From Bryum argenteum (lineage: Eukaryota; Streptophyta; Bryopsida; Bryales; Bryaceae): a stretch of 64,000 nucleotides of DNA. The notes beneath the pieces were generated by a model. The model did not search any database and had not been told where the DNA came from. It saw nothing but the letters and a program-made list of their open reading frames with translations. Within the stretch, counting starts at the first letter, position 1, and every line of letters begins with the position of its first letter. The stretch is taken from NCBI GenBank assembly GCA_037043015.1, contig CM073322.1, forward strand, positions 33,935,364 through 33,999,363, in the 5' to 3' direction. A program made the translations under genes and the position numbers. Of the stretch, positions 4,566 to 58,965 are shown in pieces.

Positions 4566-4834
4566 TTAACCCCTAAAGGCCCACGGCCGCCGATTCGGCT
4601 TTTACGGTCAAGGCCAAAAAAAATTTACAGTCAACTTCAAATGTTATGATCTCACATCCAGTGATGATCCAACGGTTGAAAATTTTCACACTACTACCTA
4701 TGGTAGTCTACTTCAAGATCCTACGGTTGAAGTTATCAAAAATTTCCAAAAATATTGGACGTACCCGCATTAGTACATAGTGGTCAGTGTTGGGATTTCA
4801 AGCTCCCAAAACATCATGGGCCTTTAGGGGTTAA
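4566..4834. mobile_element. TTAA-bounded MITE, 269 bp
   Basis: The ends are perfect 14-bp inverted repeats, CCCCTAAAGGCCCA (4570-4583) and its reverse complement (4817-4830), each followed outward by TTAA. The interior is unlike the other TTAA elements of the window and is non-coding. Confidence 0.82.
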
Positions 4835-5880
4835 TACATTGATTACATTTTAAATTTTAAATTTTAAAATTTTAAATCTTTCTTTAAAAAAAACACGTTC
4901 ATCTAAAAAACTTTGGTTTCAATTTTCAAACGGGTAGTTTAAATTTATTCTTTTTTTCAAAATCATTTTTAAAAATAAGTTTATAAACAAATCACTACTC
5001 GGTAGTTTCAAACTGATCCAAGTCAAAAAGTTTACCAATTATACAATTTTCAGTAATGTCCAAATTACTTCTTTGAAAATTCAAAAATATTGCATGAGAG
5101 TACCATCATGTGTCATGATCTTGCAAATTTTGACAAATTTTGAAGTAAGTGTAGGATAAGTGCATGAGAGTACCCATCATATGCAAGATCATGACATGCA
5201 AAGTTGGTGAATAACTTTCTTTCCCTTGTTGTAGAGAGAGAAGAGATCTGCAAGCCTATACACCACTTTCAAAAGTAAATACGACTTGTGTATCTTCATT
5301 CTTGCTACTTGGTGATTTGGAAATAAGTTACATAATTTATACTCTTATAGAACCTGTAAAAGTTTTGATTTTCACCCAAAGGTATGGTGTTATTAAAAAC
5401 CAAAGGCCAGTGATCTGATAATAAAAAGGAGCTCAAATCGCATAGAGTCAACTTTGAACAAGTTTTTATTAACTGAAGCCGATCTTATTCATCTTATTGT
5501 ATGAAGTTAGACCTTATTGCTAACCTTAGAACTTTTCTAAACATTTCCAACAAGACCATTCGTGCTTCAATATCTTCTTGTACTTTAATACAAAGTGTAT
5601 ATTTGTATATATATTTAAAACTAAGGTATATGCTTATTTATTCTTAGAAATTGTTGGAAATTAATTATTTAGATTGTAAAAACTTTAAAGTTAAACTTAA
5701 ATCAAACTTTTATTTTTTCTTAATTTTTGTTTATGTACATGTAAAGGGTTACCAAGTGATATATGAGATACATGATATTTGAAATTCTTTACATGATATT
5801 TTACTACACATTCCGATGAGTTCAAAAAAAAAAAAGAAAAAGAAAAAACTACCCGTCTTTGTTCATACTAAACCAAATCT
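4835..5880. other. AT-rich intergenic DNA
   Basis: No gene is visible. The stretch contains a short near-direct repeat around 5090-5190 (GCATGAGAGTACC, two copies about 70 bp apart) and A-rich runs next to the 3' end of the lipid-transfer gene. Confidence 0.5.
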
Positions 5881-6345
5881 CTAAAAATAAAAAAATTCCT
5901 CCTCCATGGGACTTGGGGCTGGTTCATTTTCAGGTGCTGATGTAGCGGACTCGCTTGGAGAAGGAACTGGTGCATTTGCAGACTCGTGATTAAGGAGAGC
6001 AGGGCACTTGTTAATATCTACAGCAACTGAGCACATAGGCGGAACTTGCAATGCGCGATCAATACCAAAGGTTGGAAGGCCCAATGCGCCTGCAGTAAGA
6101 GGATTTTGAACAGCTTGCAATAGCTCGCAAAGGCACTCAGGATGCTCCATTTGTATATTATACACACCTGCACAACAAGCTACCGAAGGTGCCGGTGTAG
6201 AAGTATCAACCACAAAGTCGAGGCATTCCATAAGAGGATCGGTAATGATATCACACTTGTGCAAAAAAAGTTGCCCATGTGCTACGTTTACAACCATAAT
6301 CACAAATAAAATCCATAACACAAGAGAATTTTTCACGGACTTCAT
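5881..6345 (-). CDS. Non-specific lipid-transfer protein (8-cysteine, LTP-G/D-like)
   Basis: This is a secreted lipid-binding protein of 154 residues. The start chosen is the ATG at 6343-6345 because it opens a clean signal peptide (basic MKSVKNS, then a hydrophobic core, cleavage likely after VAHG near residue 24). The in-frame upstream start would place 18 charged residues before it. The mature part has the full eight-cysteine motif C-x9-C-x15-CC-x12-CxC-x31-C-x8-C, which forms four disulfides around a lipid cavity. A Pro/Ser/Ala/Glu-rich tail follows, as in LTP-G proteins, but it ends EEEFFYF without the hydrophobic GPI signal. Either the protein is soluble or a further spliced exon is missed. 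A TATA box and three 84-bp repeats lie upstream. Confidence 0.85.
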   Translation of the reverse strand: MKSVKNSLVLWILFVIMVVNVAHGQLFLHKCDIITDPLMECLDFVVDTSTPAPSVACCAGVYNIQMEHPECLCELLQAVQNPLTAGALGLPTFGIDRALQVPPMCSVAVDINKCPALLNHESANAPVPSPSESATSAPENEPAPSPMEEEFFYF

Positions 6346-6442
6346 TTTTACAAAGTTATATTCAAAATCAAAAACAATTATAAGGTGATATATTTTCAAT
6401 GAACAATTATAGAATATTGAATAACAACAATATCATAACTTG

Positions 6443-6450
6443 CTTATATA
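6443..6450 (-). promoter_or_regulatory. TATA box of the lipid-transfer gene
   Basis: TATATAAG on the minus strand lies about 100 bp before the chosen start codon, implying a leader of roughly 70 nt. Confidence 0.55.
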
Positions 6451-6491
6451 TCCTATAATAATCTATAAATATGTAATTCTTAAATCATACA

Positions 6492-6743
6492 GTGGAATAT
6501 AAAACAAACACTCTTATTACTTGATCATAAGTACTACTCAATCAATTATATTTATGCTTTAATTCTATTTATATAGTGGAATATAAAACAAACACTATTA
6601 TTACTTGATCATAAGTACTACTCAATCAATTATATTTATGCTTTAAGTCTATTTATATAATGGAATATAAAACAAACACTCTTATTAATTGATTATAAGT
6701 ACTACTCAATCAATTATATTTTTGCTTAAACTCTATTTTTATC
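6492..6743. repeat. Three tandem 84-bp repeats in the LTP promoter
   Basis: Units begin at 6492, 6576 and 6660 (GTGGAATATAAAACAAACAC and variants) and are nearly identical. Each carries the inverted motifs TTGATCATAAGTACTACTCAA. The array lies immediately upstream of the TATA box, so it forms the distal promoter. Confidence 0.9.
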
Positions 6744-7490
6744 TACTGAAACATGCTTCTACTCATACACTTTACAAGTTTTTTATTTATATTTTTATGA
6801 TATTAGTATGTGTATTATTAGGGGTTACAAAGTAAAATTACATAAATATATAGAATCCATGTGAAGAATCAAGCATTACATTTGGGCTTATAAGTTCAAT
6901 GATAGTAAAAGCTATATAAATATATAATAAACTTATCTAATAACAATTAATTAAAAAGCCTCAAGTTTAAGTTACTTCTAACAATGTTTTTTTTTTACAA
7001 ATTCCTTTTCTGGCCGTATAAAGACAAAAGGTATACCTAGCCTTAGCGTGCGTGAACAAGGGAGAACTGTTCTACTGGATCTGCTACTGTACTGACCGCA
7101 GGAAAAAATAAGATCAAGCGCCTTGCGGTGACCAAAACCCCCTACAAAACACTTCAGTTCCTTTCCACAACAAGGGAACACTGATAATTTCAACTTTAAA
7201 CATCATAATTTTACAAATGCGTAAGAATTTGAACCTAATATCAGGTGCACATGCACAAACTGGATACTAGATCCTATTATTACACACCTCAGAACATGTC
7301 AGAAAATTAATTTTATCTTGCAGTAGGCAATCGTGAAGGTTAAGCACGAAATACGACTATTCCCCTTTCGTGATTTACCTTTGGTACAGTATGTATATAA
7401 AACAAGGATTTGAATTGGTTACTGTAGGCCTGTTATTAAACTTGATACTTCATCATGCACAACTTCTCACGGGTTTCACAAGATGCGAGA
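6744..7490. other. Intergenic, no gene recognised
   Basis: AT-rich DNA. A 71-codon frame at 6978-7193 (minus) shows no recognisable feature. Confidence 0.5.
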
Positions 7491-8053
7491 TAAGGTAGAG
7501 GAACCCATAGTCGATAAGTTAAGGCGATTTGCATAGTAGAAGTTGTATTACTCATGAGGAGAAATTTTTCTCGTATAAGGAAATAAGGTTTAGGTAGAAT
7601 GCACATTTTTCCAAATTTTTTTTCTCAAAATTGAAATTACTACAAAATAAAAAGGTGAAAAGTTGATCCGGACTAGTTACCAATATGTAGCTTCACCTGT
7701 AACCGATAACTATAAGACTAGTTCACAAACACAAATTCACTAATTCCCGTGATGGAAACTGATGTAATTGAGCTAACCACATAACTAATAGTTGATACTG
7801 TCGTTCACTAGTGGCCGGTCATGCTTAAAGCCGAGCAAAAGGCTAACAATAACCAAGCCACCAAATTTTGCTGCTTAATTTAGTGCAGCCATTCTAAACT
7901 TGGGGAAGCCACCATGCACAATCACAGAAAGTTGCCATGATTTTCAGTGTTTGCCAAAACCAAATGCCGACAATTGGTCAATCAGACCCTGGCAATTGGG
8001 GAGTCTACAACTTGGGCATGGGGACCGTATCGACTATGGGTTCCTCTACCTTA
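7491..8053. mobile_element. Candidate MITE with perfect 26-bp inverted ends
   Basis: Positions 7491-7516 and 8028-8053 are perfect reverse complements over 26 bp (starting TAAGGTAGAGGAACCCATAG). The 511 bp between them contain no gene. The outer TAA/TTA could be Harbinger-type targets, leaving 23-bp repeats starting GGTAGAGG, but the two flanks are not identical so the class is open. Confidence 0.6.
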
Positions 8054-8686
8054 CATCAATGTTGAATTACAGCTACATTCACCATCTTTCTACAATTACC
8101 GTAAGTACACAGTAGATGGTATCAGAGAAAGAGACGGTGAGGGTGTAATATCGAACTACGTCCAGTAAGTTTGTGAGAACTTGACACTAGTGGGGGGGGG
8201 GGGTGAGATCTACCGCCAATGTTTTGATAAAAGAGAATTAAGAACGTAGCAGACCCACAAACCAAGGAGTAGATTTTCCGATGAAATTAAACTCTACAAA
8301 TTCAAGAGTGGAAAACTACGATACGGAATGGTGTTCAGGAAAAAAACTATGCCACATTCCAGTTGAGTATCTTACTTGGACACATCAAAGCAAATAATAG
8401 ATGGTCAACAGTATTGAAATCGTCAAAGACAAGTCCTAATCTTCGAAGGCAAGTGGATGCAAACTTGCACAATCAGTAGTCACATATCAAGCAGTAATGT
8501 GGTCAACATGGTCATGTATGCACGTACTCATGAGGGCAACTCTCATATTTACGAAATACGAATGTCACAAAATTGGTTATTATGATAGCCGTAAGAGCAT
8601 CGCTGCATCCGAGCTACTATTTACAAAAAGCAAGCAGTTCAACTGCACAAGAAGAAACTCTCAGACTGCATCTCCATGTCAATGAT
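8054..8686. other. 3' flank of the LURP-one-related gene
   Basis: A homopolymer G run occurs near 8192-8204. The part nearest 8686 is likely 3' UTR of the minus-strand gene. Nothing else is recognisable. Confidence 0.5.
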
Positions 8687-9978
8687 CTAGTCGGAGTCAG
8701 AGCCGTTGTCGTGCAAGAACACCTCGTCCATGATCACCACCAGCGCAAATACGAGAGCCTCGTCCACGCCGGGGAAAACGGTCACTCCAAATGTGTCCTT
8801 GTCCAAGATCGCCGTCGTGAACGTGATCTGCCTTGTCACCTGCAGAAGTCCCAACATCCAGATTAGCGACATTGCATGCATCTGATTCATCCTTGCTCAA
8901 TTCTAACATTTTGTGATAGATTAGTTCTGATTGTGGATGGCGATGGAGGAAGGAGCGATGGGTACCAGGGCAGCCTGTTCAGCGCCGCGGAAGACGGTGA
9001 TGTTTCGGTCGAAGAAGTCACCCTTCACTTGGTAATCCGGGGTGTGCTTGCCCGTGGTGCTAGATGCGAGCATGACGTCCATGGCGGTCTTAAACTGCAC
9101 CAACGACGACTTTTTGCATGTCGCCACGACGTGGTCGCCATCGCCAGCCAGAATCTCCCATGTATCGTGCATCGTGATCAGCTGCAAGCACAATCGGGTC
9201 GAATCAGCAAACCATGATCGATTGATCGTAATGGACGAGCTGTGGATCGTTTAGGGTTGAGGATTACCTTCTTCTTCATGGTGAGGATCTTGTTGCCAGC
9301 GGCGTCGCGCAGGAAGCGCCTGTCGCGCATGCTCGCGACGCGGCCGTCCACCTTGAAGGAGCTGTGACCCATCTGGTCGGTGATCGACCAGTCACCCTTG
9401 CTCACCGACATCTTCTTCTTCGACACGGCGTAGCTGCGCACTGTCTGCGCAACGTACTGCTGCCCCACCACCGGAGCGTGTTGCATCTGCCCAACTCCTA
9501 CTCCGGCTCCGGTAAGCCCCGTGGTCTGGTTGATGTTCTGCGGCGGCTGGACGTAGCCACCTCCCAGGCCCGTCGATTGCCCTGTGGGATGCATGGCTGT
9601 CGCACCCGGTGGGTGGTGCATGCCCGTCGTTGTGCCCGTCGGATTCATGGCTGCACACAAGCGTCCGATCAGATCACCACATCCAAGGCAAGATGCGCTT
9701 ACACCGATCGCAACGACCAATCAAGACCTACTTCTACAATTTGCATTCGCACAAGACATGGAACGATTGCCTCAGCAACGATCTGTCGACCAACAACTGC
9801 TTTAAAAATTAAAAACAAAAAGAGTCGTGAATACACCAACGATCACTAGATCTCGATGGTTACGATCTTTGCCATAGCTAGACCGATCAGCATTGCATTC
9901 AATCTATGTGAAGTTTCTACCTGGGTTGGTTGGCTGAGTGTGCGGGTAGCCTCCGCCAAGTCCCTGGTTGTATGCCAT
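8687..9978 (-). CDS. LURP-one-related (LOR) protein
   Basis: Four exons (9978-9921, 9650-9268, 9181-8966, 8839-8687) join in frame at GT-AG sites into 269 residues. Residues 1-79 are a Gly/Pro/Thr-rich low-complexity leader (repeated HPTG, GLGGGY). From about 80 the LOR fold follows: YAVSKKKMSVSKGDWSI, then VDGRVASMRDRRFLRDAAGN, LITMHDTWEILAGD, KKSSLVQFKTAMDVML, and the closing hydrophobic strand-helix FGVTVFPGVDEALVFALVVI. The family is a Tubby-like beta barrel around a helix. Some Arabidopsis members act in basal defence, but the biochemical role is unsettled. The 58-bp first exon encodes the same Gly/Pro-rich style. Coding GC is much higher than the surroundings. The leader resembles the long N-termini of some plant phospholipid-scramblase-like relatives, but the core is LOR. 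Confidence 0.9.
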
Positions 9979-10832
9979 CTCAGAACAGTGCTTCTAAATA
10001 GTGCTTTGTAATCGATCGATCTGCAGTCAAGACAAGATAAAGGAATCGAAGGAATTCAGGAAGTAGGATCAATGTGGTGACGAAAGAGCTTGAATGCAAA
10101 GCATTTATGCACGAGCAAAGAGACGAAGCCCGGCGCTACGTGGTAGAAACCCACAGGCTGAAGTATCAGAGCCCATAGATAGAATGACGAAGCACTAATA
10201 ATATCGTTGAGTATCCATCGGTATAATGTTCAAAAATGCCAAATGGCAGGAACCGATTGTGTGAAACCCATGGAAAAGCATACGTGACGATCGATACATC
10301 GGAATTCGCAGTGAGCCGCGTCGGTGCTTTGGCTCACCATGATTCGAGGAAACCTCCAATAGTTTGGTGAAAGAGTTTCGAGTAAGGCATCCACCTGGCC
10401 GAATTGCATGGGATTAGCGACAAGTGGCGTGACACTAGGTGCATTAGTCAGAGTACAAGTGCGCAGCAAAAAAGTGGACCTTACTTGAAAGCATCTTATC
10501 GACCTACTTTCCTGACGAATTCAGCCCATCGCAAATCATTCTCTTCAGCATATGCTTTCAGAACTGCGTTTGCAAAGTCCTTGGAATCTGATGCTTCGGT
10601 TTGAAATTGAGTTGTGATTGACTTTGAACTGATAATTGCACCTCAGATTGCGCATTTCAAGCATATTCAGAGAATCTGTCGAATGAATTCTTCTACTTCG
10701 AGTTTGTGCACCTTCGTCTTCGACTGTTGCGCATTCTCAGCATATCAAAAGAATCTCTCCTCATGGAGCTTCACATTCCTTTGTGAAGCGTGTCCTTGCT
10801 GAAGGATAATACAGTACTTCTTTTAAAATATT
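9979..10832. other. LOR 5' flank and unassigned DNA
   Basis: A weak TATA-like GCATAAATG on the minus strand near 10097-10105 could serve the LOR gene. The region 10470-10800 is less AT-rich than its surroundings and gives short minus-strand reading frames interrupted by stops, possibly an old gene relic. Nothing is recognisable. Confidence 0.4.
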
Positions 10833-10960
10833 TCTCACTACACAAGAGTTGTTAATTAGTGTTACAGACATTAATGGCTAACACGGCAACACTAAATGTC
10901 ACGTATTACCATAGTGTTACAACACTAATTGTCAAACTCAACACTAAATGCGAGAGCATG
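10833..10960. repeat. Dispersed repeat copy 1, CACTA-like start
   Basis: The stretch starts CACTACACAAGAGTTG and contains GTTGTTAATTAGTGTTA plus an imperfect inverted counterpart (ACACTAATTGTCAAACTC). It matches 40497-40620. CACTA..AAGA is the usual tip of CACTA elements, but no opposite tip is seen. Confidence 0.5.
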
Positions 10961-11622: not shown

Positions 11623-12175
11623 TTGACTCCTTAATGTCCTTGGGTTATTTTTAGCCAAAATCTCATTTTTGAAAAAAGTGACAGATGAAAATAAACACAA
11701 GCTATTCGAATCTCAACCATACAAATTTATAATAGACTTGTTGTAAATCAAGTGGTCCAAAACTTGACTTTTGTGACCTTATAGATTGTGAGATCGTAAC
11801 ATTTTAGTGCGCAAAATAGGCACATAATATTATAATTTTCACTTTGAAGTAAAAATGCTACCAACACTAAATTTACAATAAAAAAATCACCAACTAAAAA
11901 TTTGTTCATTTTCATCTCAAAAGCACTCTTGTACCAAAAAAAATTCATCAAACAAACATCTTGTCTAAAATAGTAGCCTTGTTATGGTGAAAATTGCCAA
12001 TCATTTTATAAAGGAAAAATAGTCCAAATCTAGACCCCTTGCACTCAAATTCATGCCTTATCTTCAATACATCTTTGATCGGGTCAAGGTTTCTATCACT
12101 AAAACTAGACTAGAGTTAAAATCCATCCCAAAACATAAAGTCCAAAATCTAATAGTGGATGAAGAAGATTCCTTG
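11623..12175 (-). mobile_element. TTAA element family 1, truncated, reverse orientation
   Basis: The terminus reads TTGACTCCTTAATGTCC, a mutated TTAACCCCTAAACGTCC. The inner sequence (TATTTTTAGCC, then ACAAATTTATAATAGACTTG) matches the reverse complement of the copies at 13-14 kb and 19-20 kb. The far end is missing. Confidence 0.65.
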
Positions 12176-12345: not shown

Positions 12346-14277
12346 TTAACCCCTAGTTGTCCTTGCAGTTGTTTTGATACATTTTGAATGAAGGTCAAAA
12401 ACTTTGAAGAGCCATGACTTCTTCATCTACAGTCCGTATTTGACGAAAGCTCTTCGGTTGGGTCGCAAATCAAGTCTAGTTCGTGTGGTGGAAATTGCAG
12501 ACACATACAATGAAATTTTGAGTTTATGGCATGCATTTTAGTGACAACAGCTTTTGGTTTGAGACTTCCAACCTTGGGCATGTTTTATCTTTGCAAGCCA
12601 ATTATGAGGAATTGAAAATAATTCTCTATGAATTATTTTTTTACATAAGTATGATCCGAAGATGAATCTCAACAACGTTTTAGTTGGAAGCTTTTTGATC
12701 CAAATAACTTTAGTGTTAGATTTGCCATGATATTTCTACGATAGAGATAGTGAAAAATTGGATGAAGTTTGAGGAGCTATATCTCCTTCATCCGACGTTA
12801 GATTTCAATTTTATTTTTTAGGATGGACTCCCATTAGAGTCTAGTTTTAGTGGTAGGGATTATATTGACTTAATTAGAGATGTTTTGATGATAAGGCGTA
12901 GGTTTGGGTGCAAGAGGTGTAGTTCTCGACTACTTTTTCTTTGTAATGTTTTGGTAGTTTTCACCATTGCAAGGCTACCAGAGGAGCCAATGAACATTTT
13001 TGATGATCATTTTTGAACAACTTTTTGGTTGGTGATTTTTTTATTGCAATTTGTTAAGTGGTAGGATTTTCACTCTAAAGTGATATTGATGAAATTTCAC
13101 AATTTGCTTTTAGTATTAAAACGTTACGATCTCTCAATCTATGAGGGTTCATAACTTGAAAGTTGGTCTACACAATCTAAAATAAGTCTACTATAAGTTT
13201 GTACGGTTGAAATCTGAATAATTTACCTTTATTTTCATTTGTGACATGTTTTTAACCCCTAAACGTCCCCAATGTCGTTTTTCTACATTTTGCATGGAGG
13301 GTAGAAACTTTGAAGAGCCATAACGCCTTCATCCAAACTCCATTTTGGATGAAATCACTTGGGTTGGGTCCCAAATTAAGTTTAGTGTGTATGGTAAAAC
13401 TTTCAAAGCCATACAATCAACTATGAATCAATGGCATGCATTTTAATGAAGGCAACTTTTGGTTTTGGGTTTTCAGATATTAGGCATGTTTTATCATTAC
13501 AAGCCAATTATGTGAAACCAAAAATAGTTTTTGATGAATTTTTTTTACACGAACATGGTCTTTAGATGAAATCTAACAATTTTCTACTTGGAAGATTTTT
13601 GATCCAAATACTATTGGTATTACATTTTCAATGATGTTTCCACAATGAAATAAGTGAAAAAATGGGTGGTTTTTGAACAGCTATATCTTTTTCATCCATC
13701 GTTAGATTTCAACTTTATATTTTTGGATGGATTCTAATTAAAGTCTACTCTCAGTAGTACAAATCTTGACCAAATCGAAAATGTTTCGTAGATAAGGCGC
13801 AGATTTGAGTGCATAGGGACTAGTTTTGGACTATTTTCCCTTTGTAACTTTTTGGGCAGTTTTCATCATTGCGAGGGTATTTTTTGAGCCAAGTAATTAT
13901 TTTGATAATTTTTTTTACATAGGGGTACTATTGAGATGAAGATGAATAACTTTCTAGTTGAAGATTTTTTCATTGGAGTAACTTTGTTGGTAGATTTTCC
14001 ACTCTAAAGTGAAAATGATGAAATTTTGCTGCTTGTTATGCGCACTAATATGTTATGGTCTTGCAATCTATAAGGCCTCATGACTCAAATTTTGGTCCAC
14101 ATGACCTACAACAAGTCTATTACAAGTTTGTACGGTTGAGATCTAAATAGCTTATATTCATTTTCATCTATGACAAATTTTTTGAAGATGTGATTTTTGG
14201 CTAAAAATAGGCTGGGACGTTTAGGGGTTGAAAATTGTATTTTTGGGTTAAAATAAGCAGCGACGTATAGGGGTTAA
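12346..14277 (+). mobile_element. TTAA element family 1, outer copy of a nest
   Basis: The element starts TTAACCCCTAGTTGTCC at 12346 and ends GACGTATAGGGGTTAA at 14277. After the inner copy is subtracted, its two parts (12346-13251 and 14232-14277) total 952 bp, close to the 980 bp of the inserted copy. Non-coding. Confidence 0.8.
13252..14231 (+). mobile_element. TTAA element family 1, inner copy
   Basis: Bounded by TTAA (13252-13255) and TTGA (14228-14231, one substitution), with ends CCCCTAAACGTCCC and GGGACGTTTAGGGG, a perfect 14-bp inverted repeat. It interrupts the outer copy just before its terminal 46 bp. The interior contains the family hallmark GAAGAGCCATAACGCCTTC. Confidence 0.85.
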
Positions 14278-14683: not shown

Positions 14684-15115
14684 TTAACCCTTAAGCGCCC
14701 ATAGTGTCGTTTTTCGACATTCTGGAAGTGAGGCTCCGTCTTTGGTGCACAGCTCCGCTTTCATCCCATTGATTTTTCATCCGTCGATTTTTTTGACCAA
14801 CTCCTTGGTGGGTTTACTCTACTCCCTCCTTGGGTAAATAGTAATAACCTTGATCCTCAATTTGTGAGAGTGGGCGAAAGAGATTTTTCATGAAAGTTTT
14901 GGTGGTGTGATCTTCACCCCTTTTTTGCATGGATCTTGAAATCCATAGCTCCAAATGGCATGCAACTTGTCGGTCATACTAATTGCCATGCTCCAAAGAA
15001 GATCCTACGGTTGGATTTTCCATTTTCATCTTTTATTTTTTTTTACGCAATTTTGAAAAAATCAGCATTATTACCAACTTTAAGGAGCTTTACCCCGTGG
15101 GCGTTTAGGGGTTAA
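14684..15115. mobile_element. TTAA-bounded MITE, 432 bp
   Basis: Left end TTAACCCTTAAGCGCCCA; right end, reverse-complemented, TTAACCCCTAAACGCCCA. The interior is a separate family without coding capacity. Confidence 0.8.
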
Positions 15116-15495: not shown

Positions 15496-15864
15496 TTAAC
15501 CCTTAAACGCCCAAGCAAGCCCGAGGGGCTTGATTCCAACAGAATCTACCTTGTAGCTCTCACTGTACTCAACTTTTCACTTATATTTTGATGTCAAACT
15601 GGTCACCGTCTTGTGATGCATTCAAAAGTGAAATTTTACAATTCAAATCACAATTTGTATGAATGATTTTGTGCTTTGAAAGGATTGTGGTAGGTAGGTT
15701 GGGGTTGTACATAACCTTGTAGGAGGTTGCAAGCTCATCATTGATTGGTCCATTCATGATGCCCAAGTTCAAAAAGTGCACTATTCATGATGCCCAAGTG
15801 CAAAAGATGCTGTGATCCAATTTTGGGCTGCCCGTTTTAGACCCCATGGGCGTTTAAGGGTTAA
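15496..15864 (-). mobile_element. TTAA element family 2, copy 1
   Basis: Ends TTAACCCTTAAACGCCCA and its exact reverse complement. The interior is homologous, in the opposite orientation, to 35120-35520 and 38334-38702 (for example GACATCAAAATATAAGTG and GGGCATCATGAATAGTGCAC). It contains two copies of a roughly 31-bp minisatellite. Confidence 0.88.
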
Positions 15865-18893: not shown

Positions 18894-19161
18894 TTAACCC
18901 CTAACTCTCCTTAAAACCCGAAACAGGTTTCGAAGGTTCCCGCAGGAGAAAAACTCAGCCAACTTTGACCATTATAATCTCACAAATGAGGAAGAATGAA
19001 CGCTTCAAATTTGGTATGTTAGAAGAATGTTAAGTGAACTTTGAGATCTTACGGTTGGATCCTTCAAATAATGCTTAGATTTAGATTTTTTGAGCTTAAT
19101 CCAAGGGAAGGTCAAATTTTGTGTCTTAGACCGTTTTGCAACAAGGAGATTTAGGGGTTAA
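18894..19161. mobile_element. TTAA element family 3, copy 1
   Basis: The element starts TTAACCCCTAACTCTCC and ends GGAGATTTAGGGGTTAA. The interior (CAGCCAACTTTGACCATTAT, then ATCTTACGGTTGGATC) matches 58716-58965. Confidence 0.82.
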
Positions 19162-19221: not shown

Positions 19222-20043
19222 TTAACCCCTTAACGTCCCTAGCTTCAAAAAACGACATTCTGGATGAAGAGCTTGAAACTTTGAAGACTCATAACTTCTT
19301 CATCCGAACTCTGTTTTTGACGAAATCACTTGGCTTTGGTCCCAAATCAAGATTAATTTTTGTGGTAAATATTGCAGACCTATACAATAAAGTGTTAGTA
19401 AATGGCATGAATTATTGTGAAGGCGGCTTTTGTTTTTGGGGTTTCACCCATTTGGCATGTCTTACCATTGCAAGCCAATTGTATGAAATCAAAGTATTTC
19501 ATGAATTTTTTTTTACGTAAGAATGATCTCAAGATGCATCTTAATAGCATTTGTAGATGGAAGATTTTTGATCGTGATAACTTTGGTATTGGATTTGAAA
19601 TAAGGTTTCCACGATGAAAAAAAATGATAATCTGGATGACTTTTTTAGAGCTATATATCCCTCATCCAACGTTTACTTAGATTTTGACCTTTTTTTTTGG
19701 ATGGAATCTAATAATGGTCTAGATTTTGTGGTAGAAACCTTGACCCACTCACAAATTCATAGACACATAGATACATTGGAGATAAGGCTTGGATTTGAAT
19801 CAAAGGAGTGAAGTTTTGGACTATTTTTCCTTTGTCAAATGTTAAGTTGTTTTCACCTTTGCAAGGCTATCATTTGAACCAAGATATTTTTTTAGTCAAG
19901 CTTTTGTCAACATGATCTATAACAAAGTTTATTACAAGTTTGTATAAATGAGATTTAAATAGCTTAACTTTATTTTCATACATGACACATTTTTTGAAAA
20001 TGAATTTTTGGCTAAAAATACCTCAAAGACGTATAGAGGTTAA
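19222..20043 (+). mobile_element. TTAA element family 1, near-complete 822-bp copy
   Basis: Bounded by TTAA at 19222-19225 and 20040-20043, with ends CCCCTTAACGTCCC and GACGTATAGAGG. The interior follows the same order as the nested copies (CATAACTTCTTCATCCGAAC, CATGAATTATTGTGAAGGC, AACAAAGTTTATTACAAG). Confidence 0.82.
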
Positions 20044-31902: not shown

Positions 31903-32739
31903 TTAATCCCTAAAGTTTCAAGGCACTATTTGAATGCTTTTCCCTCAAAACTGCCCTCTTTCCATGCAAGATGCAAATTTTTTTATTTTGACAAATTTTG
32001 AAGTTTGCAACCGTAGGATCTAGTGCTAACTAGTACATGTACATGTATACCAAAACTTAGATTCAAATTCTTCACCATATGTGAGATCATAACATTCAGA
32101 GTTGAAAAAATAGTTTTTTTCATGTTGTAAAATGGCAAATTAATGTTTTGGGGGCCAAAAAAACCATTTTTGGTAGATAATTTGGTTTGAGGCTTTGTAG
32201 AGTCTTGTTCCTAGGTAAGTTAGGAACATGTCTATGCAACTTTTACCCTCATACCACCTATAGAACCTATACACATGGAGTTATGTTGAAACTCAAATAC
32301 AAAGGCTAATTTTCAACAATTATACAGGCATGTAAAATTATTAGATTGATTTTCCAAACAGTAAGATCATGCCTTATTACCTTCTCTACATATACAAAAA
32401 ACAAAACTTGAAAAAAATTAAGATCCCAAATTTTGGTACATTTTGAAGATTCAGCGTTTTGGTCTAGTTTGGACATATTTTGAGAATAAATGAGCATATA
32501 GTGCAATTTGGGCAATATTGGGCAATATTGGGCAAATTTCAAATAGTCTTTTCAAACGTTGACTCCAAATATCTCCTAGAATATGAGGAATTTTGGAGCA
32601 TGAGATGACTCTTCGGAAAGCTATGGAAAATATCTACAACTCGCAAAAGGTTTCAACTTCATGCGTTCTTAAATAGTAAGTCAAAGGTGACCAAAGCCAA
32701 TTCGGCATAGAACAGGCCTCTTGAAATTTTAGGGGTTAA
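31903..32739. mobile_element. TTAA element family 4, 837 bp
   Basis: Left end TTAATCCCTAAAGTTTCAAG; right end, reverse-complemented, TTAACCCCTAAAATTTCAAG. The interior (GAATAAATGAGCATATAGTG, GGAATTTTGGAGCATGAGAT) is shared with dispersed family B at 23.7, 25.7, 42.4 and 50.3 kb. This copy therefore supplies the ends of that family. Confidence 0.75.
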
Positions 32740-34221: not shown

Positions 34222-34454
34222 TTAACCCTTAAAAGTCCCTTGGGGATAGTATGTACGCTGTCGTATAATTAGGATTTGCTACCAACAAGAAACTCTAAAT
34301 TGGAATTGTAATAGCTCACTAGAACCGCATTAATTCAAATGTCAACTTCTTCTTTGAACTCAAACCCATTAAAAGTATGCATTTACTCCAAATACAACCA
34401 AAATATACCGTATTCTACTGGTCGCCACGGCACGCTCAGACCTTTAGGGGTTAA
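34222..34454. mobile_element. TTAA-bounded MITE, 233 bp
   Basis: Left end TTAACCCTTAAAAGTCCC; right end, reverse-complemented, TTAACCCCTAAAGGTC. The interior is unique in this window. Confidence 0.75.
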
Positions 34455-35119: not shown

Positions 35120-35520
35120 TTAACCCTTAAACGCCCATGGGGTCTAAAAAGGGCAGCCCAAAATTGGATCACAACATCTTTTGGACTTGGGCATCATGAA
35201 TAGTGCACTTTTTGGACTTGGGCATCATGAATAGTGCACTTTTTGGACTTGGGCATCATGAATGAACCAATCAATGACGAGCTTGCAACCTCCTACAAGG
35301 TTATGTACAACCCCAACCTACCTACCATAATCCTTTCAAACCATAAAATCATACATACAAATTGTGATTTGAATTGTAATATTTCACTTTTTGAATGCAT
35401 CATAAGATGGTGACCAGTTTGACATCAAAATATAAGTGAAAAGTTGATTACAGTGAGAGCTACAGAGAAGATTCTATTGGAATCAAACCCCTCGGGCTTG
35501 CTTGGGCGTTTAAGGATTAA
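35120..35520 (+). mobile_element. TTAA element family 2, copy 2
   Basis: Ends TTAACCCTTAAACGCCCA and (reverse complement) TTAATCCTTAAACGCCCA. It carries three copies of the 31-bp minisatellite TGGGCATCATGAATAGTGCA, against two in the other copies. Otherwise it is near-identical to 15496-15864 (reversed) and 38334-38702. Confidence 0.88.
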
Positions 35521-38333: not shown

Positions 38334-38702
38334 TTAACCCTTAAACGTCAGGCTATACGGATTTGGGCAGCCCAGTCTTGAATCACAGCATCTTTTGGAC
38401 TCGGGCATCATGAATAGTGCACTTTTTGAATTTGGGCATCATGAATGATCCAATCAATGATGAGCTTGCAACCTCCTACAAGTATTGTACAACCCCAACC
38501 TACCTACCACAATCTTTTCAAAGCACAAAATCACTCATACAAATTGTGATTTGAATTCTAAAATCTCACTTTTTGATTGCATCAAAAGAAGGTGACCAGT
38601 TTGACATCAAAATATAAGTGAAAAGTTGAGTACATTGAGAGCTACGGAGAAGATTCTGTTGAAAAAGGACCCCTCGGGTCACCTTAGACGTTTAAGGATT
38701 AA
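38334..38702 (+). mobile_element. TTAA element family 2, copy 3
   Basis: The left end is TTAACCCTTAAACGTC and the right end (reverse complement) is TTAATCCTTAAACGTC. Two minisatellite units. Homologous to the two other family 2 copies. Confidence 0.87.
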
Positions 38703-45639: not shown

Positions 45640-47588
45640 ATGGCGGCTCCAACCGGCACTTCGTGGCAGGACTTTGCAGGGCATCCTGCTGACGATGCGC
45701 ACAATGAGCACCATTTTATTTTCTTTTATGTATACTATTTGCCTCTCATGATTGCGTTCACGATATTCAACTTCATTTCGGTGCCACTTACATGTATCGT
45801 CTAGCATTCCAGTTTCATGCTCGTGTAGACCATTACGTTGTATATATTCCTATGCCCGACAACCTGTGCAATGCTACAACCCCCCTCTGATGCCTCAATG
45901 AGTACATGCACTTTAATTTCTATATGCATTGACAAAAGTGTATTACAAAATAAATTAACTTGCGGAGCTCAATGCAGTGGACATCGCCTCCCCAGCTCAA
46001 GTGCCACAACATGCTAACTTAGGAGGTGCAGTCAGACATAACAATCGAGGAAAGCGCAAGATATCTGTAAGTACAAGTCAAGGCCAAACTTTTCAACAAG
46101 ACGTGAATACAATCGACGGAGGCGGACCACCAAGGCGCCGCAAAGAGAGAGATCCAAACTGGAGCAAGGAGGAGGTTATGGCACTCGTTGAGGCAAAGCG
46201 CTTGGAGCACTTAGATGAGATGGAGGTCATTGATGCGAGAGATTTAATGTCCACAGACGTGACAAAGTGGGGGAAATTGCGTTGGAGGTAAATGCCATTT
46301 CAAGGGGGGAAGTGGTCCGAGAAGCCCCGACTTGCAAGCATAAATGGCAATCAACAATGTCTGACTTCAAACATATCGTTGACTACCACAAGGGCACATG
46401 CAGGAATGAAGAAGAATACTTCCTGATAACATTCGCAAATAGGCGCAAGCAGAACTTGCCAAGGTCGTTCTTCAAGGAAGTGTACAGTAGCATGTTCGAA
46501 TTTCTCATGACACAGCCCATGATGAATCCTCCATATAGCCGGGATCTTCCCCAACGTCATGATGCGAACTACAGAGCGGATAACTCTGGCTTGGAGATCC
46601 ATCTGAACATGAATGACGATGACAACTTTTTTGATTCACAACCCAAGTCATTCAACTACAGTGACAACTCACCCGACATTCGAGAGTCTACTCCAAATGT
46701 TTCCCGCTAGGGAAATGGACCCTGGACTAATCCTCGTCGTGAAGAAGTTTCCTCCCATGTTGTTCCACCTCATACAGCCTCAAGAGTAAACTTGGCCTCC
46801 ACGGTCAAGTGGTCAACGTTAGAGCGTATGGGAGGTCATTGGTAGCCCCCCCTAGTTTTATGCCTAGTGTCAATCTCAATTCACCTCCGGGCGTTGACCA
46901 ACACCACCCCGACCTGAATGTAGCAGGTATCGACACTGAGGGAAACGAAGTCAAGAGTAGACCCCTCCAGAGCCTTGTAAATGTCAACAAGCAGTCACCG
47001 AATGAAAGCAACCTACATAGAGGACGCAGTTCACCAGCTTCTCCACTCAGTGCACGTGCACGAGCATCCCGGGTTGGTGGTCAGTCTGCAAGCGGCCAAG
47101 CTGGGCGACCTCACGTCCTTTCGTCCTCTAGTACCAGCACTTACAACCTGAAGAGGCTCAATCGCAACACTGGGCAACGGAAGCATGCACATACTGGTCA
47201 CAAGCTCATGGCAGATGTCACAGCCGAGGCAGGTGAGAAGATGGTCAAAACGCTTCAGGACATGACATATACGAATAAAGAGTTGGAGAGTATGCGACTT
47301 GACATGCAATCCAAGATGCATGCAGAAGAGATGGAGTATAGGCGAGAGAGAGATCAGCAGGAGATGGAGAACATGAGGTTGATTTTATTAAACCAGGGCA
47401 TGGTTGTGCAAGCAATATCTAGCCTTGCAAAGGCAATTGGACGTACGGTAGGACACAATTTGCCGCACGTTCGAACACATATTGCGCTGCAAGACAAGAG
47501 GCCCACGGCCCCCACCATCCCCAGTGACATACCTATGTCGAGTACAGCACCTGCTCGTGATACTGGAGATGATGATCCTCTCCTATAA
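45640..47588 (+). pseudogene. Myb/SANT-like ORF1 protein of Harbinger element 2
   Basis: The ATG at 45640 (MAAPTGTSWQDF) could start a first exon, and the clear homology begins at 45977. The DNA-binding domain reads NWSKEEVMALVEAKRLEHLDEME, then, after a frameshift near 46275, EAPTCKHKWQSTMSDFKHIVDYHKGT, the trihelix/SANT pattern with three spaced Trp/Phe positions. A stop at 46708-46710 separates this from a 259-codon frame (46809-47588). That frame has a Pro/Ser-rich middle and a long coiled coil (about 47240-47400, LESMRLDMQSKMHAEEMEYR) of the sort that mediates contact with the transposase. An intron could bridge the gap, but the frameshift argues for decay. Confidence 0.72.
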
Positions 47589-47671: not shown

Positions 47672-47725
<54 letters not shown>

Positions 47726-50883: not shown

Positions 50884-50924
<41 letters not shown>

Positions 50925-51704: not shown

Positions 51705-54700
51705 ATGAGATCGGCACAGTTTCGGAGGAGTGTAATCGCGTCTCGAGGTTTGTTCACCTCGAAGCCAAGCGCAGGGAAAGTAGAGGCAGATGCTTCGCAG
51801 AGCGTGTGTGAGAGATTCTCTGGTGCCGCAAGGAAGACATCTCTTCATCCCCCTTTCAGAATCTCAGCTGGTTTTAGCTCAAGAGTCCTTGGCAATGCTG
51901 ATTGCTTAGGTTACGAGCGGGCACTGCATGTATTTTCCCGAGTGAGTGCTGCACGCCAGCTTACTACGAGTGTTGCGAATCCTCCTGTTGAGAGAGGTCG
52001 AGCTCAAGATCCTTACCTGGCCACAGAAATAGCGTTGGACGCAGTTGTGAAGATCTTTGCAGTTTCCAGTAGCCCGAACTACTTCCTTCCTTGGCAAAAC
52101 AAAGCACAGCGAGAAGCCACTGGCTCTGGTGAGTTCCTCAGGGTTTTCGTCGGTTTCATGATTCAGCCTATCAAATTTTCTTCAATGCAGTACGAAAGTG
52201 GACGAATATGGACATATTTTAGAATCATAATCACCTCTTTTTATTCAGACTTCGGAGGTCATAACAGAACGAAGTGGAGAAAACAATAGTTTACCCACTC
52301 GAGTCATGTCAATACTTCAACGTAGGACATTTGGATTTCACCTTCAAGTCGCCTCATTTTCCGTCGTGAGAGTGAAATTGCAAAGATCGGTTTTTTGATA
52401 TAGAGTTCTGAGCGACATGCACTTGACATGCTCACAAGTATTAGTCATCAGTTACCAATAGATTGAGTTCCCGTAGGTCAACAACATGAATCTGTCAGAG
52501 GTCTTAGTTCTGTTGGTTATTTCAGAACCAACTTAGCTGTAAACCGGATATTGATTGAATTCCTCTGCTTTGGTAGTCCAGCACTTGACCCAGAAGTGAG
52601 GTGATGTGCAGGATTCGTGATATCTGGGCGCCGGATCGTAACAAACGCCCATGTGGTAGCTGATCAAACGCACATGATGGTACGCAAGCATGGGTCGCCT
52701 ATCAAATACCATGCGCACATTGAGGCTGTGGGTCACGAGTGCGACTTGGCTCTTTTGCGAGTCGATGACGATGAATTCTGGCAAGGAATGATAGAGCTCG
52801 AACTTGGGGACATCCCGTTTTTACAAGAATCTGTGGCTGTTGTTGGATACCCTCAAGGTATGGTTGCAAAGCACCTCCTCATCGGTGATTTCAACCAAGT
52901 CTAGGTCTTTGCCGTTCAGTCGAACAGGGAGTTACGGTTTCGTGGTCTATGTACCTGCTGATGTGCAGATGTTTACTCTTCGCTCTACTCCTAATGTATC
53001 CCTTCATCATATGTTTTTTACTTCTTTAAAGTCACCTAAAAGGTCTATGTTTTTCGGAGGGGCCACTGAATGGTCAAGATATTCGTTTAGTTTTGCACTT
53101 TCTGGGACGTTCCATCATTATGTTGTTGACACAAGGATCTGTTATGAATTTCTGCAGGAGGCGACAATATCTCAGTTACTGGCGGCGTTGTGTCTAGAGT
53201 CGAGCCAACGCGGTATGTGCATGGAGCTGCTCATCTCATGGCTATCCAGATTGATGCTGCCATTAATCCAGGCAACAGTGGTGGCCCTGCTCTCATGGAG
53301 GACAAGGTGGTTGGAGTAGCCTTCCAAAATCTTGCCAACGCAGAAAATATAGGGTCTGTATTACCTCTCCAAGAGAATTTACCTTGTTTGTACAACTGTG
53401 TAGTTAGAACATGACTGAAATATGGCTTTCCATCTAGAGTTTGATATTATATTCTAGATTTTCATGTGATTTTGCAACTAAGAGATATCAGAATGTGGTG
53501 CTGGGGCTTCGCTGAAAGTACTTCGTCATATTTCAGGTATATCATACCAGTCCCAGTCATCAAGCACTTTTTAGCGGACGTGGAGGAGACTGGAAGTTAC
53601 ATTGGTTTTTGTTCGTTGGGCGTCACTTGCCAGTCAACTGAAAACGTGCAACTCCGCGAGCACCTCAAGTAAATGACTCTGAAACCTACTACAATGTGGT
53701 GGGAATCACCAGAAAGCTGATTTAGACTCTCTCTTCGTTTTCAATTCACTCACATTTGGAGCTTCTGTAGCTGCTTCCACCACGGAGAGATTTACCACTT
53801 AGTGACACAGTAATTTAGATCAGCTCCACAGGACACATGACCATCAATGTTTCAATGCCACTGATTGTTCACTACTGGCACTTCATTATTGGTAAACTAC
53901 AGGATGCCGCCCGGCTTGACAGGTGTATTGATCAACAAAATCCATCCTCTCACCGACACCAGTCGATGTCTTCAAAGAGATGATGTAATCCTCAGTTTCG
54001 ATGGTATTCCCATTGCTAATGATGGAACAGGTACTATTTCAGACCAACTTTGTGACCTGAATTTCTCCAACTTGCTCCTGTAAATTCATTTCTCTGTATG
54101 CTACATACTCGTATTTGCGATGAGTTTCTTCGGAATCATGAAGTTCCTGTGAAGACTGACCATTGAGACTGAAACTAACATTTGAGGTCTTAAAGCAGTG
54201 AGGGTACTTCCTGAGAATCTGGCGTTGAGGTGAGGGTGAGCTGACAATGCTGAAAATTGCAGTGCATTTTCGTAACAGGGAGCGTATCTCATTTGATCAC
54301 CTGGTGTCGATGAAGAAGGCCGGTGAAACCGCCAAAGTCTCTGTAATGCGAGCAGGGCAAGAACTCCATTTTGACATCAAGCTGGGCCCTGTATGTTGGA
54401 CTATCCTTATGCTTTAGTGTATTTGTTTCGGGGTTCGTTTGTCAATCAAAAATCGAGGAAGTGTCGACCTTTGTTTGTATACTGCACTGAAGATCCGTAG
54501 TTCTCAGGGTTCGGGGAAGCTTTTTGAAAAATAAAGAAACTAGGGGTTAGGAATGCTAATGTAATATGGATGAAGGATCAGATCTGATTGATTTGAGTTA
54601 AATCAAACAAATGGGCAGCCAATGATCCTTTTAGTGTGGATCGAGTTTGACATGGTATTGTAACCGTCACTACACTGGATTATGCAACAAGAATTTGACT

Positions 54701-55984
54701 CCTTACGCTGGGTGCTATTTTGCAGTTGCGACCTCTGGTACCCATTCATCAATTTGATACGTTACCAAGTTACTACATTTTTGCGGGTCTTGTATTCACT
54801 CCCTTGTCCCAACCCTATCTGCAAGAGTATGGGGAGGATTGGTACAACACCTCACCGCGGCGTCTCTGTGAGCGTGCATTATCTGCTTATCCAACCAAGC
54901 CCGGTCAACAACTCGTCATTTTGTCTCAAGTAAGAAAGAAATTGTTGCTGCTTTTATGTCTTCCTAAATACTTACGAAAATTGTCTCTAGAATTGATTAT
55001 GCATATGAGATCAGATATATTTAAGCGTGAGGTTGCCTTTAATTTGTGGATTGAGTTTACAATAGAAACAATTCTTAGGCCGGTTCACGAGAGGTGGAGA
55101 TTCTTAGGCCGGTTTAGGCCGGTTCACTAGAGGTGGAGAGAGAAGTCCATTGAAAATTATTATTAGTGACTATTGAGTATTTTATTGAAAAAAAATGATT
55201 TTGGCTTGGCTTTCCAATTTACTGTACCCAAACTCTTGGTTGGGAGGCCAGACTGCACTTTGGGCACCTTTCACCTCTGGACTTTGGTCACTAGGCCAAA
55301 CTTTCGCTCTCCATTGGATTTCCTTGACCTCTCGACTCATAGGTCCTCATAGGCCCCTTATTTATGACTGAATCTAGAGAATCTAGAGGGCATTTGTAAA
55401 TGAATGTCATAACAATCGGCGGTTGGCATGCAGGTTCTGATGGACGAGATCAATGCAGGCTACGAGAGATTTCATGAATTTCAGGTATTTTCGCATGCAG
55501 CAGGAGCTTGTTGGCCATCTGGTAGGAGTTGTATGCTATGCCATGCCAAGAAGAATGGAATGACTGAATAATCATCATGAAAAGTTTACCTGTGTTATTG
55601 GTTCGAGGTGGTCATAACATGGTTAAGCATGAGGTCATTGACCAACCTTTGGTCCTATAGGTAAACAAGGTGAACGGCGTTGAAGTCCATAACCTTCGGC
55701 ACCTGCGCGAGCTTGTGGAAGAATGCACGGAGCCCAGCCTCCGCTTTGATCTGGATGATAGTCGAGTAGTAGTTCTGGATTTCCGAGCTGCCAGAGAAGC
55801 ATCCTTGCGAATTTTGCAGCGGCATCGTATTCCTTCAGATACCTCGAAAGACCTTCTGGAAGAAGAGGATTCTAACGCTGGTGCTTTTCTGAGTTGGGAG
55901 AGCCCTTCACATACGAAAGAGGACAAGGATTCCGAGGGCATGCCCGTTGAGGATGACAGGGTGCCTCAGCCAGTGAGGGCATAG
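51705..55984 (+). CDS. DEG/HtrA serine protease, DEG10-like, probably mitochondrial
   Basis: Nine exons (51705-52128, 52612-52857, 53158-53353, 53537-53668, 53903-54030, 54263-54390, 54726-54929, 55434-55484, 55661-55984) join in frame at GT-AG sites into 610 residues. The first 100 or so are basic and Ser/Arg-rich ([15 protein letters not shown]), fitting a mitochondrial presequence. The trypsin-like domain has His155 (TNAHVV), Asp186 (CDLALLRVD) and Ser264 (NPGNSGGPA). A PDZ domain follows (about 305-400, [26 protein letters not shown]). The degenerate second PDZ and C-terminus ([32 protein letters not shown]) are typical of the plant DEG9/DEG10 branch. The presequence favours DEG10 over nuclear DEG9. 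Such ATP-independent proteases degrade damaged proteins, especially under heat. Intron 7 holds a short tandem duplication at 55071-55139. Confidence 0.92.
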
Positions 55985-58715
55985 TCGTTATTGATCTAGT
56001 GAGGCATGCATCCTTTACTGCTGGGCAGATACTTGTATTCTTAGCTGAAGTATACTTTCTCTTTCGAGAATATTTCGTCTCAGTGTTGCAAAATTGAAGT
56101 CTATTCTTGAAAAGAACAAATCGCGCACATATTATCACAACTTTTTGATTGACCGAGTGCTGTACTGTATGTGCTCGCCTGATACTGATTGATCTCGAGA
56201 CCAGCGAGCTGCCAGCTAATTATTCAAACCCCAGCCTGTCAGTGCGAGCCACGACATTCACAGAGACAGTTGCATCGTCGTGTTTATCTTCAATAACATG
56301 TGGGTTTGCAGATCTGGGATTCTAGGGCCCGCTTCGCATTCAAGGACATGCAAATGTTGAGAGATGAAAATTTTGATAGTGGCGGTGTCTGATAGGCATT
56401 GGCCGTTGTTAACTGATTGAAGTGAAAGTGCCGAATTGGCATCTACAGCGGTTTTCATACTCGTTGTATTTCTTTTTTTCACTCTGCAGCTGTGCTCTCT
56501 GTTGTGTTTTTCTTCTCTTTTCTGCTCTTATGTGTAGTATTACTGTACTAGCACGATTGTGGTGATTTACCCCTTCCAGCCGACCAGGACATTCTTAAAC
56601 AAGGCTGACAGTTCTCTTTTAGACAGTCCCTTGAAACCCTTGCCGAGCACTCGATCGAAGTACATATGGTACTGGGGTACAAGAGGGACCCGTGCTTTGT
56701 GCTCTTAAAATGTCATAACTCGGAAATATTCCCATTTCAAAACTGTAGCCTTCTCATCGATATGGATGCCTGACAATCGGGACAACGATGGGATTTGTAC
56801 CTTTACCATTTTACACCGTGTGCTATTCTTTTTGGCTCTCACCCTAATCGAATTCTGAAAGGAATGTGTTACAGGAATCAGAAGGCTGCATCTGGGTGAA
56901 GTGATTTGGAGATCTGCAGGTCATATTTCAGAGCTGCTGAGTCTTGAGCAGCCATCAGCTCAATACGCAGCTCATATAACTTGCCCTGCTGTACTGTATT
57001 CTACAGTACCCTCACCTTGCCTTACGAATACTGCTCTTTACGAATACTCCTCTACTTTTCACTTTTCAGAAACTTTGAAAAGTCCCATTGTGGAAATTTT
57101 TCCAAAAATTTCAGACACTTTGTGCACGATTTCTCGATAGTTGAACAGACAATCCATTGGGTTTAATGCATGGTGTGTTCGCTTGTCGTCTTTTACCAGT
57201 TGTTGGTGTGACGGATTGTGAAGCCTAACGAAACTATTATCCTCGTATCCCTAATGCATGTATGAGAATTGCACCACCGTTTAGGTGTGATTACTTTTTT
57301 GCATACAACATTGAACTAGCACAGTCAGCGATATAGTCCCGTTGAGGTGTTTCTACCGAGTGATAATTTTGAGATAAATGGTTTGCGGGCTGTTTCAGCT
57401 AGCCGTGAAAAGTAGGGTACGACAAGGTTGAAGTCCACCCAGCACCCATGACAGTGACTCTGTGACTGAATGATGCAAGTGGGTGATGGCTGCAGAGATC
57501 AACTTACTATTTCAGGAGTCTGGGCACACTTCTAGAACTTCCCTGGACCTCAAGTCTCATAATGGCCCTTCCTGCACCTGCTGCCATTGTTATTGAGTAG
57601 GAGTAGAATGATAGATCTTCCGCTCTTAGAATGTACAGTACGTGTCAATCGATTCCAAACAAAAATATCATTTAAACACAAGAAATAAAAGAACAGTCAA
57701 AGTTGAATCTCATTGGATGAGTGATTCTTGGGGACTGCAAATCTGAAGCTATCTCAGGAACAAGCATCTGGCCATATGGGGCCTCTCCATATTACCAGTG
57801 TCATGTGAAAGCCAGTTCAATAATCATCGAATGAATTCCTGTTCATAAAATTTGCATACGTGTTGTTACTACTACATGTGGTTTGTCATAATGCTCTCGC
57901 CATTATCTTCTTGACATACTCTTAGTGGAGAATTAGACCTTGAACATGTAAACGATCTCTCATTGACTCATCTTGACTTGAAAAATGATAAGTCTAAGCT
58001 TTTCTCAATCGTGTTCTATGGATATTGGATTGGTCGTACAAAAATTAATACAACCAACAACATATTGTCCAACAATAAGCTTATTATAGAGTAACTGAAG
58101 GATGAATCAGCTGAAAATTCATTGTTGCAGCGGCATGTATGCAGGGCGGTAAAACAAGAAGTGAAGGCTTGTGAATCACATGGCTTTGGGTTCAACTGTG
58201 GACGGAATATAGAATGAGTTTCCCATGTTAGTGATTTATCATATAGTATAAATGTTCAGAATAGAATCTCCGCATCATTATAAACGTTCAGACTGAGGCT
58301 GTCACCAAACAACAGACCTGGTCTGTACGGTGGCCAACTGCAGCTTGCAATTGAGTGGCAGGAAACATCAATACCAAATTGTTGAAATTGTTCAAGGGGA
58401 TGATGAGCAGCTTGTTTCATTATTGAGAAATATGTTGCTTGCTTCTGCATTAGACTGTACCTTTCATGTCAGGCATTGTTTCATATTGCATGATCTACTT
58501 CTGTTTTTCACTCTAAACTATAAGTTGGACATGGTTTAAATCATTTCTACTCATCAAGCATCTTCTACAAATTATCCTCTCCAGTGAACGAACTTCTAGA
58601 TTTCGAACAAGGACAGAGTTCATGTCATCTGGACTCAACCTGTGCACGGGTTCGAAAGATATGCAACAATGTGAATTGGATGCACTGTTTATGTGTTTTT
58701 TACCCTTAGAGATTC
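55985..58715. other. 3' flank of DEG and intergenic DNA
   Basis: No gene recognised. Open frames of 60-80 codons on both strands lack features. Base composition is less AT-rich than at 30-38 kb and transposon debris is sparse. Confidence 0.45.
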
Positions 58716-58965
58716 TTAACCCCTAAAGGTCCAAGAAAGCGAAAACTGCTTTTTGGAGTCCCCGATTCAGCCAACTTTGACAATTATAATCTCACAATTG
58801 AAGAAGAATCAACGGTTCAATTTTGGCAAGTGAGTGGAAGGTTAAGTCAACTTCAAGATCCTACGGTTGGATCTTCCAAATAATTCTTAGGATTGGGAGT
58901 TTTGAGGCCTGAAGTAAGGGCATGTCTATTTTTACAATTTTGCATCAAGAACCTTTAGGGGTTAA
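58716..58965. mobile_element. TTAA element family 3, copy 2, 250 bp
   Basis: Ends TTAACCCCTAAAGGTCC and GAACCTTTAGGGGTTAA. The interior is collinear with 18894-19161 (CAGCCAACTTTGACAATTAT, ATCCTACGGTTGGATCTTCC). Confidence 0.85.

Follow-up and report, generated by a model that had tools for sequence, protein, structure and literature searches.

DNA transposons of the piggyBac superfamily, a group that is best known from animals and unusual for a plant host, combine a DDE_Tnp_1_7 transposase with a DDD triad and a cysteine-containing C-terminus, TTAA insertion sites and tips that start with CCC. Here, we describe short elements with such tips in a stretch of 64,000 nucleotides (the window), together with piggyBac genes of the same genome (G000; 258,844,377 bases in 25 contigs). 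The domain, the triad, the TTAA sites and the CCC tips, as represented by the structures 6x67 and 9c0f (piggyBat), are found again and cysteines occur in the C-termini, while the host is a plant and the transposase frames are longer, i.e., 867-928 amino acids (aa) from stop to stop in five examples compared to 594 aa for the 6x67 chain. The window elements are almost certainly non-autonomous derivatives of endogenous piggyBac transposons in a plant, probably a moss, and resemble miniature inverted-repeat transposable elements (MITEs). Plant MITEs of PIF/Harbinger and Tc1/mariner type are short, non-coding, internal-deletion derivatives of high copy number; the elements studied here differ from them in having TTAA instead of TWA or TA and in their piggyBac parents.

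The nearest parallel that we found are the coral CMITEs (PMC2872659), which are, going by passages of that paper, piggyBac-related MITEs in a genome that also holds piggyBac-like transposons, with more than one element side by side. According to the same passages, CMITE families are more alike in their interior than in their tips, whereas here the tips are conserved and the interiors differ. Furthermore, the coral arrays are put down there to replication slippage, while neighbours in our case have a TTAA in common, in agreement with insertion into a tip.

The superfamily as such is not new to plants. In the passages available to us, PiggyBac is reported for all plant groups studied (PMC4438587), named among plant superfamilies (PMC10794571), also listed for plants (PMC10813416) and counted with 1,230 copies among the repeats of Ceratopteris (PMC6890710). 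As far as these passages go, such reports are lists or counts and give no tips, empty sites or pairing of MITEs with parents. The piggyBac system that is used in plants stems, by a passage of PMC10905368, from the cabbage looper moth. Within titles and abstract beginnings of the open-access literature, a scope outside of which most subscription papers lie, no description of native moss piggyBac elements was found.

Tips and gene-bearing elements

The original prediction, made from the window alone, had listed at least twelve elements with shared tips that are bounded by TTAA. All twelve start coordinates indeed bear a tip and a paired inverted tip, and TTAA is found on both sides of 11/12 elements; the right end of the remaining one (13252-14231) is mutated and reads TCAA. 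The tips start with CCC (TCC in some copies), and their fit to the 17-mer is uneven, with three mismatches in the left tip of the element at 31903 as well as in the right tip of 19222-20043. On both strands of the window together, the tip is found 9 times in its exact form and 17 times when up to one mismatch is allowed, whereas 20 dinucleotide shuffles contain it 0.05 times on average in either case. The genome-wide tip search that had been proposed as a check gave 4,530 + 4,531 (9,061) exact 17-base tips, while the reversed control is found 1 + 0 times. For the 12-mer TTAACCCYTAAA, the respective numbers are 11,520 + 11,664 (23,184) and 207 + 194 (401).

To these tips belong transposase genes. 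A six-frame search of the genome with PF13843 (DDE_Tnp_1_7) yielded 775 candidates, of which 116 were scored; 116/116 are above the cut-off (best E-value 7.4e-82) and all fall on contigs C1-C11. This number of contigs would agree with the 11 chromosomes that abstracts give for three mosses, although another moss has 6. None of the 116 scored domains lies inside the window, as had been predicted. The 30 best-scoring domains were used for a triad check and a tree, and the L010 domain was aligned to 6x67, the T. ni piggyBac structure. The three aspartates of the catalytic triad are kept in 30/30, 29/30 and 30/30 domains, respectively. By sequence, the L010 domain finds the transposase 6x67 (8.9e-25) and piggyBat 9c0f (2.7e-21) in PDB. 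In six frames of 867-972 aa, one of them cut by the end of its locus, DDE_Tnp_1_7 is recognised with E-values of at most 1.2e-77. Between 4 and 9 cysteines are present in the final 80 aa of 16 frames, which are in part incomplete, and no match to a Cys-rich Pfam model was obtained in 6 proteins. A scan of viral_contigs with the L010 domain, i.e., with the domain of one lineage I element alone, returned no relative.

In the tree, the 30 domains form the clades I (9 rows), II (3), III (4) and IV (12) as well as the single long branches L035 (V) and L011 (VI), which may have been grouped together wrongly. Lineage V is large, given more than 50 matches with at least 70% identity to L035, some of which are fragments. 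For 16/30 loci, the sequence was extended: four (L009, L010, L013, L018) had already shown a tip and 12 were chosen for clade coverage, among them L016, L028, L031 and L035 with a TTAACCC on the 3' side beforehand and eight without. Convincing paired TTAACCC tips were found for 13/16 extended loci, which represent five lineages and span 4.9-8.4 kilobases (kb). These are G10 (5,199 base pairs, bp), G09 (4,950 bp) and G18 (5,412 bp) of lineage I, G16 (5,286 bp) and G37 (7,623 bp) of lineage II, G17 (5,851 bp) of lineage III, the lineage IV elements G14, G19, G25, G27, G28 and G31 (4,940-6,399 bp) and G11 (8,392 bp) of lineage VI. Elements that carry a DDE transposase gene between tips of this kind thus exist, and their DDE_Tnp_1_7 domain bears out the piggyBac class that had been read from TTAA and CCC. 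The bases that follow TTAACCC vary by lineage, such that the tips are related but distinct where they were read. Among the remaining three loci, G13 has tips 8,593 bp apart, G29 shows a lineage III-like pair with one end mutated, and G35 (lineage V) has one end only. Tandem repeats with a unit of about 21 bp were observed in G10 (L010) some 380-555 bp from the gene-3' end; the L009 copy is without that length.

Four further loci were fetched for their equal domain scores, and 3/4 have paired tips. One of them, L064, is 99.8% identical over 5.7 kb to the other three copies. The longest frames of these copies comprise 831 aa in three and 916 aa in one case. Since the flanks differ in the three copies in which they were compared, we read the set as pointing to recent transposition.

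Miniature elements and their parents

To relate the window elements to the gene-bearing ones, the first 17 bases were removed from the ends of 11/12 elements (12346 was left out) and the best match to the gene-bearing elements was compared with those of 200 simple letter shuffles. No shuffle reached the score (0/200) for the elements starting at 4566, 15496, 18894, 35120 and 38334, while the results for 31903 (1/200) and 58716 (5/200) are less clear. In blast comparisons, 4566, 18894, 31903 and 58716 are supported as members of lineage IV, and 15496 as well as 35120 as members of lineage I. The element at 38334 yields no direct blast match to gene-bearing elements (threshold 1e-4) and is placed in lineage I because of its ends and its 89% identity to 15496. 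Judged by these matches, seven of the twelve window elements can be traced to lineages I and IV of piggyBac, five of them firmly and 31903 and 58716 less so. Short elements with ends from a gene-bearing parent, which is what a MITE should be, make up 7/12 of the set, and 5/12 are without a parent among the sampled elements.

The make-up of such an element is most easily seen at 4566..4834 (+ strand, 269 bp, lineage IV). Its bases 1-38 correspond to the 5' end of a gene-bearing element (92% identity over 38 bp to G27 of lineage IV) and its bases 40-269 to the 3' end (88.5% to the last 244 bp of G14, also lineage IV). The element thus consists of 38 bases of a 5' end and 230 bases of a 3' end, and miniature elements commonly originate in this manner. 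For these families, such an origin also explains why common tips go along with differing interiors, with no need for cargo; the interiors of the seven traced elements contain parts of the ends of different parents. Lineage IV further includes 18894..19161 (+, 268 bp), with 37 bp at the 5' side that are 89% identical to G31 and a 3' part at 72-89% to lineage IV 3' ends, and probably 58716..58965 (+, 250 bp), with 25 bp at the 5' side at 96% to G14 and a 3' part at 72-82% to G19, G25, G28 and G31. The link is less firm for 31903..32739 (-, 837 bp), where 52 bp close to the left end resemble the 3' ends of lineage IV with 77-81% identity.

Both ends of the lineage I element 15496..15864 (+, 369 bp) match G09/G10 in the right asymmetry. 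Its relatives are 35120..35520 (-, 401 bp), which is 87% identical to it and 88% identical to G09/G10 over 33 bp, and 38334..38702 (-, 369 bp). On its right side, 15496-15864 shares the TTAA with the left tip of a copy that resembles family A and starts at 15861.

Family A comprises a nested pair, whose nesting the original prediction had not mentioned, and one further element. The outer element 12346..14277 (+, 1,932 bp) is split by 13252..14231 (+, 980 bp), to which it is about 72% identical over 1-908; the third one, 19222..20043 (+, 822 bp), is 71-83% identical to 13252. The ends of the family read CGTCCCCAATGTCG and CGTCCCAGCC. A genome-wide search with 13252 gave 7,383 first-look candidates, 40 of which were scored; besides 13252 itself, 38 of them match over nearly the full length, with 91-95% identity in 37 cases and 89% in the remaining one. 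High copy number is therewith observed for family A. The two remaining elements are 14684..15115 (+, 432 bp), with no established parent, and 34222..34454 (+, 233 bp), which shares tips only and has no parent among the sampled elements. At least four interior families and a few singletons had been predicted for the window. Blastn supports the singletons (four) and yields three multi-member families instead, namely 12346/13252/19222, 15496/35120/38334 and 18894/58716. In the two lineage V 3' ends that were read (L035, L081), no parent of family A was found; they gave matches to 14684, short matches to the box described below and one 18-base match to 12346.

We thus propose the following origin. 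Gene-bearing piggyBac elements would have lost internal sequence by deletion, leaving miniatures that retain the tips and subterminal sequence. A transposase from full elements elsewhere in the genome would bind the ends, excise the element and insert it into a TTAA, which would result in TTAA on both sides. Several piggyBac lineages would coexist in this way, with lineages I and IV each having miniature families of their own in the window. We infer that the transposase is active now and acts on these copies, as well as a parent of the same kind for family A, 14684 and 34222.

The original prediction had instead suggested a single transposase that mobilises many cargoes. One promiscuous piggyBac transposase would then move all families, with TTAACCCYTAAA as shared part of the tips and unrelated cargo as interiors. 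We consider this improbable given four transposase clades and two long branches with distinct bases after CCC and given seven window elements that match lineage I or IV specifically, inside the tips; it would, on the other hand, agree with tips that are much alike across lineages, with different families lying side by side, and with family A and 34222 being without an identified parent. Cross-mobilisation between lineages may occur.

Empty sites and insertion preference

Joined flanks were first searched in 254,709 bases, which resulted in 55 candidate pairs, many of them overlapping or spurious. Exactly one TTAA, as had been predicted for empty sites, is found in part of the cases. The outer element 12346-14277 has one paralogous empty site, in G18 (L018+L040), and it reads TTAA (1/1); the same holds for the gene-bearing element G09 (1/1), whose site lies at 294-390 of the window. 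For G19, TTAA is present in 3/8 paralogous sites (L003 and, in the window, 13219 and 40628). For L064, 37 matches resulted from a genome-wide search with the joined flanks, and 31 of these cover the query from end to end, with 93-99% identity. Six of the 31 were read, and each is one ungapped block with one TTAA (6/6). The single match for L005:1164-1517 reads TTGA, and the pairs at G18:8083 are part of a tandem array and show no clear TTAA site.

Several results weigh against the derivation from piggyBac elements. The other paralogues of G19 read TTAC, TTAG (twice), TTTA and ATAA, and TTAA is found neither for the nested element 13252-14231 (0/5 paralogous sites) nor for a 939-bp element at G09:7202-8140 (0/7). 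These older sites, which align with few or no gaps, may have been changed by mutation. For 14684-15115, the joined flanks gave no full-length empty site. With regard to the ends, the shuffles keep base composition only; no parent link was obtained for 14684 (25/200 shuffles), 19222 (27/200), 34222 (87/200) and 13252 (106/200); blast of 12346 against the 13 gene-bearing elements gave no match. Finally, TTAA is palindromic, so sequence alone cannot separate a duplication of TTAA from a duplication of TA that is flanked by T and A.

It is the class of the transposase that decides between the two duplications. The empty sites that were read show TTAA and no 3-bp direct repeat, and thus not the 3-bp TWA target duplication of PIF/Harbinger. 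Sola and Kolobok also use TTAA, and an origin from such a superfamily, with piggyBac being coincidental, could be brought forward for family A, which is without a parent so far. It is very unlikely and contradicted for lineages I and IV, since gene-bearing elements with these tips hold DDE_Tnp_1_7; no search was aimed at Sola or Kolobok transposases. An origin of the tips from telomere or satellite sequence without mobility, suggested by the plant telomere unit CCCTAAA within many tips, has next to no probability and is ruled out by the empty sites, besides conflicting with paired inverted tips at fixed lengths, dispersed copies and transposase genes inside.

Neighbouring elements can share a TTAA. 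Back-to-back strict tips around one TTAA occur at 273 places genome-wide and at 0 for the control; by sequence, 15861-15864 is an example in the window. Assuming about 1.29 million TTAA sites, as estimated from the window, and uniform insertion, rough arithmetic leads to about 100 expected junctions. This excess is modest, and clustering together with insertions that target the TTAA of tips already present would account for it. The largest contig C1 (44.1 Mb) contributes 2/273 junctions and 5/116 scored piggyBac domains, compared to about 20 expected by length, and a listing of some 100 exact-tip places, all on C1, reaches to 23.3 Mb. C1 looks element-poor and may differ from the other contigs, for example as a sex chromosome.

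A palindromic box and the genomic setting

Part of the elements carry a palindromic box close to GATCCWACGGTTGGATC, located at a distance of 92-101 bases, about 152-165 bases or both from one end. It is present in 7/7 lineage IV 3' ends (at most 1/200 shuffles reach the score), in two lineage V 3' ends (0/200 and 4/200) and in the window elements 4566, 14684, 18894, 31903 and 58716 (0/200 each), where the box was defined from the same sequences such that these shuffle figures are flattering. In 14684, it lies 98 bp from the right end within a region that has 24/24 bases in common with the lineage V locus L081; in 31903, it is 101 bp away from the left tip. The box was not seen in the lineage IV 5' ends, in the tested ends of lineages I, II, III and VI (21-200/200 shuffles) and in 13252, 15496, 19222, 34222, 35120 and 38334. 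Among 80 distinct but partly related tips, the half box CAACCGTW occurs at 17 places 80-119 bases in and at 8 places 160-179 bases in. The box core was noticed post hoc near one end of G17 (lineage III) and near one end of family A; both are not counted.

Within lineage IV, the box could be due to shared descent. More telling is its presence in lineage V despite a protein identity of about 45%. In our reading of these patterns, the box is a putative transposase-binding site, and a site for a host factor is equally open. The element of T. ni has 19-bp internal repeats, whereas the box is located about 100/160 bp from one end; to our knowledge, a palindromic box is not known from piggyBac as recognition site. 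We tentatively go one step further. A moss may house a living community of several piggyBac lineages, at least one family of which is still transposing, and lineages IV and V may use a second recognition site, i.e., the one-end box about 100 and 160 bp in, that their miniatures have kept; we regard this combination as possible, with considerable doubt.

Besides the elements described above, the window contains genes for which Pfam reports LTP_2 and LOR. The genome has a LEAFY-type gene (SAM_LFY, E-value 1.1e-28) with an adjacent frame that reads KPKMRDYVHCYALHCLD; Asp at that LEAFY position is the moss form and His the flowering-plant form. Remains of PIF/Harbinger are located at 331-1663 (+) and 2038-2418 (-) of the window, with DDE_Tnp_4 at 1.7e-24 in 1106-1663 (+) and a Myb/SANT-like frame on the opposite strand slightly below the cut-off; the sequence at 294-390 is the G09 empty-site paralogue. 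Three adjoining frames at 45959-47588 (+) have no Pfam match and look by eye like a plant Myb/SANT transposon protein. Some 200 bp before 4566, at about 4298-4366, there is a short run of tandem repeats whose unit is close to CACATTTACCACGTGGTTTAACC.

Native piggyBac lineages, with copies that are 99.8% identical and with short elements that bear such tips in their thousands, provide a natural system in which the behaviour, spread and silencing of piggyBac in plants can be followed. The piggyBac lineages of a plant genome are also a possible source of plant-adapted transposases. Since lineages coexist with paired miniature families, the cross-mobilisation of relatives becomes testable, and the palindromic box is a specific candidate for an additional recognition site that can be put to the test.

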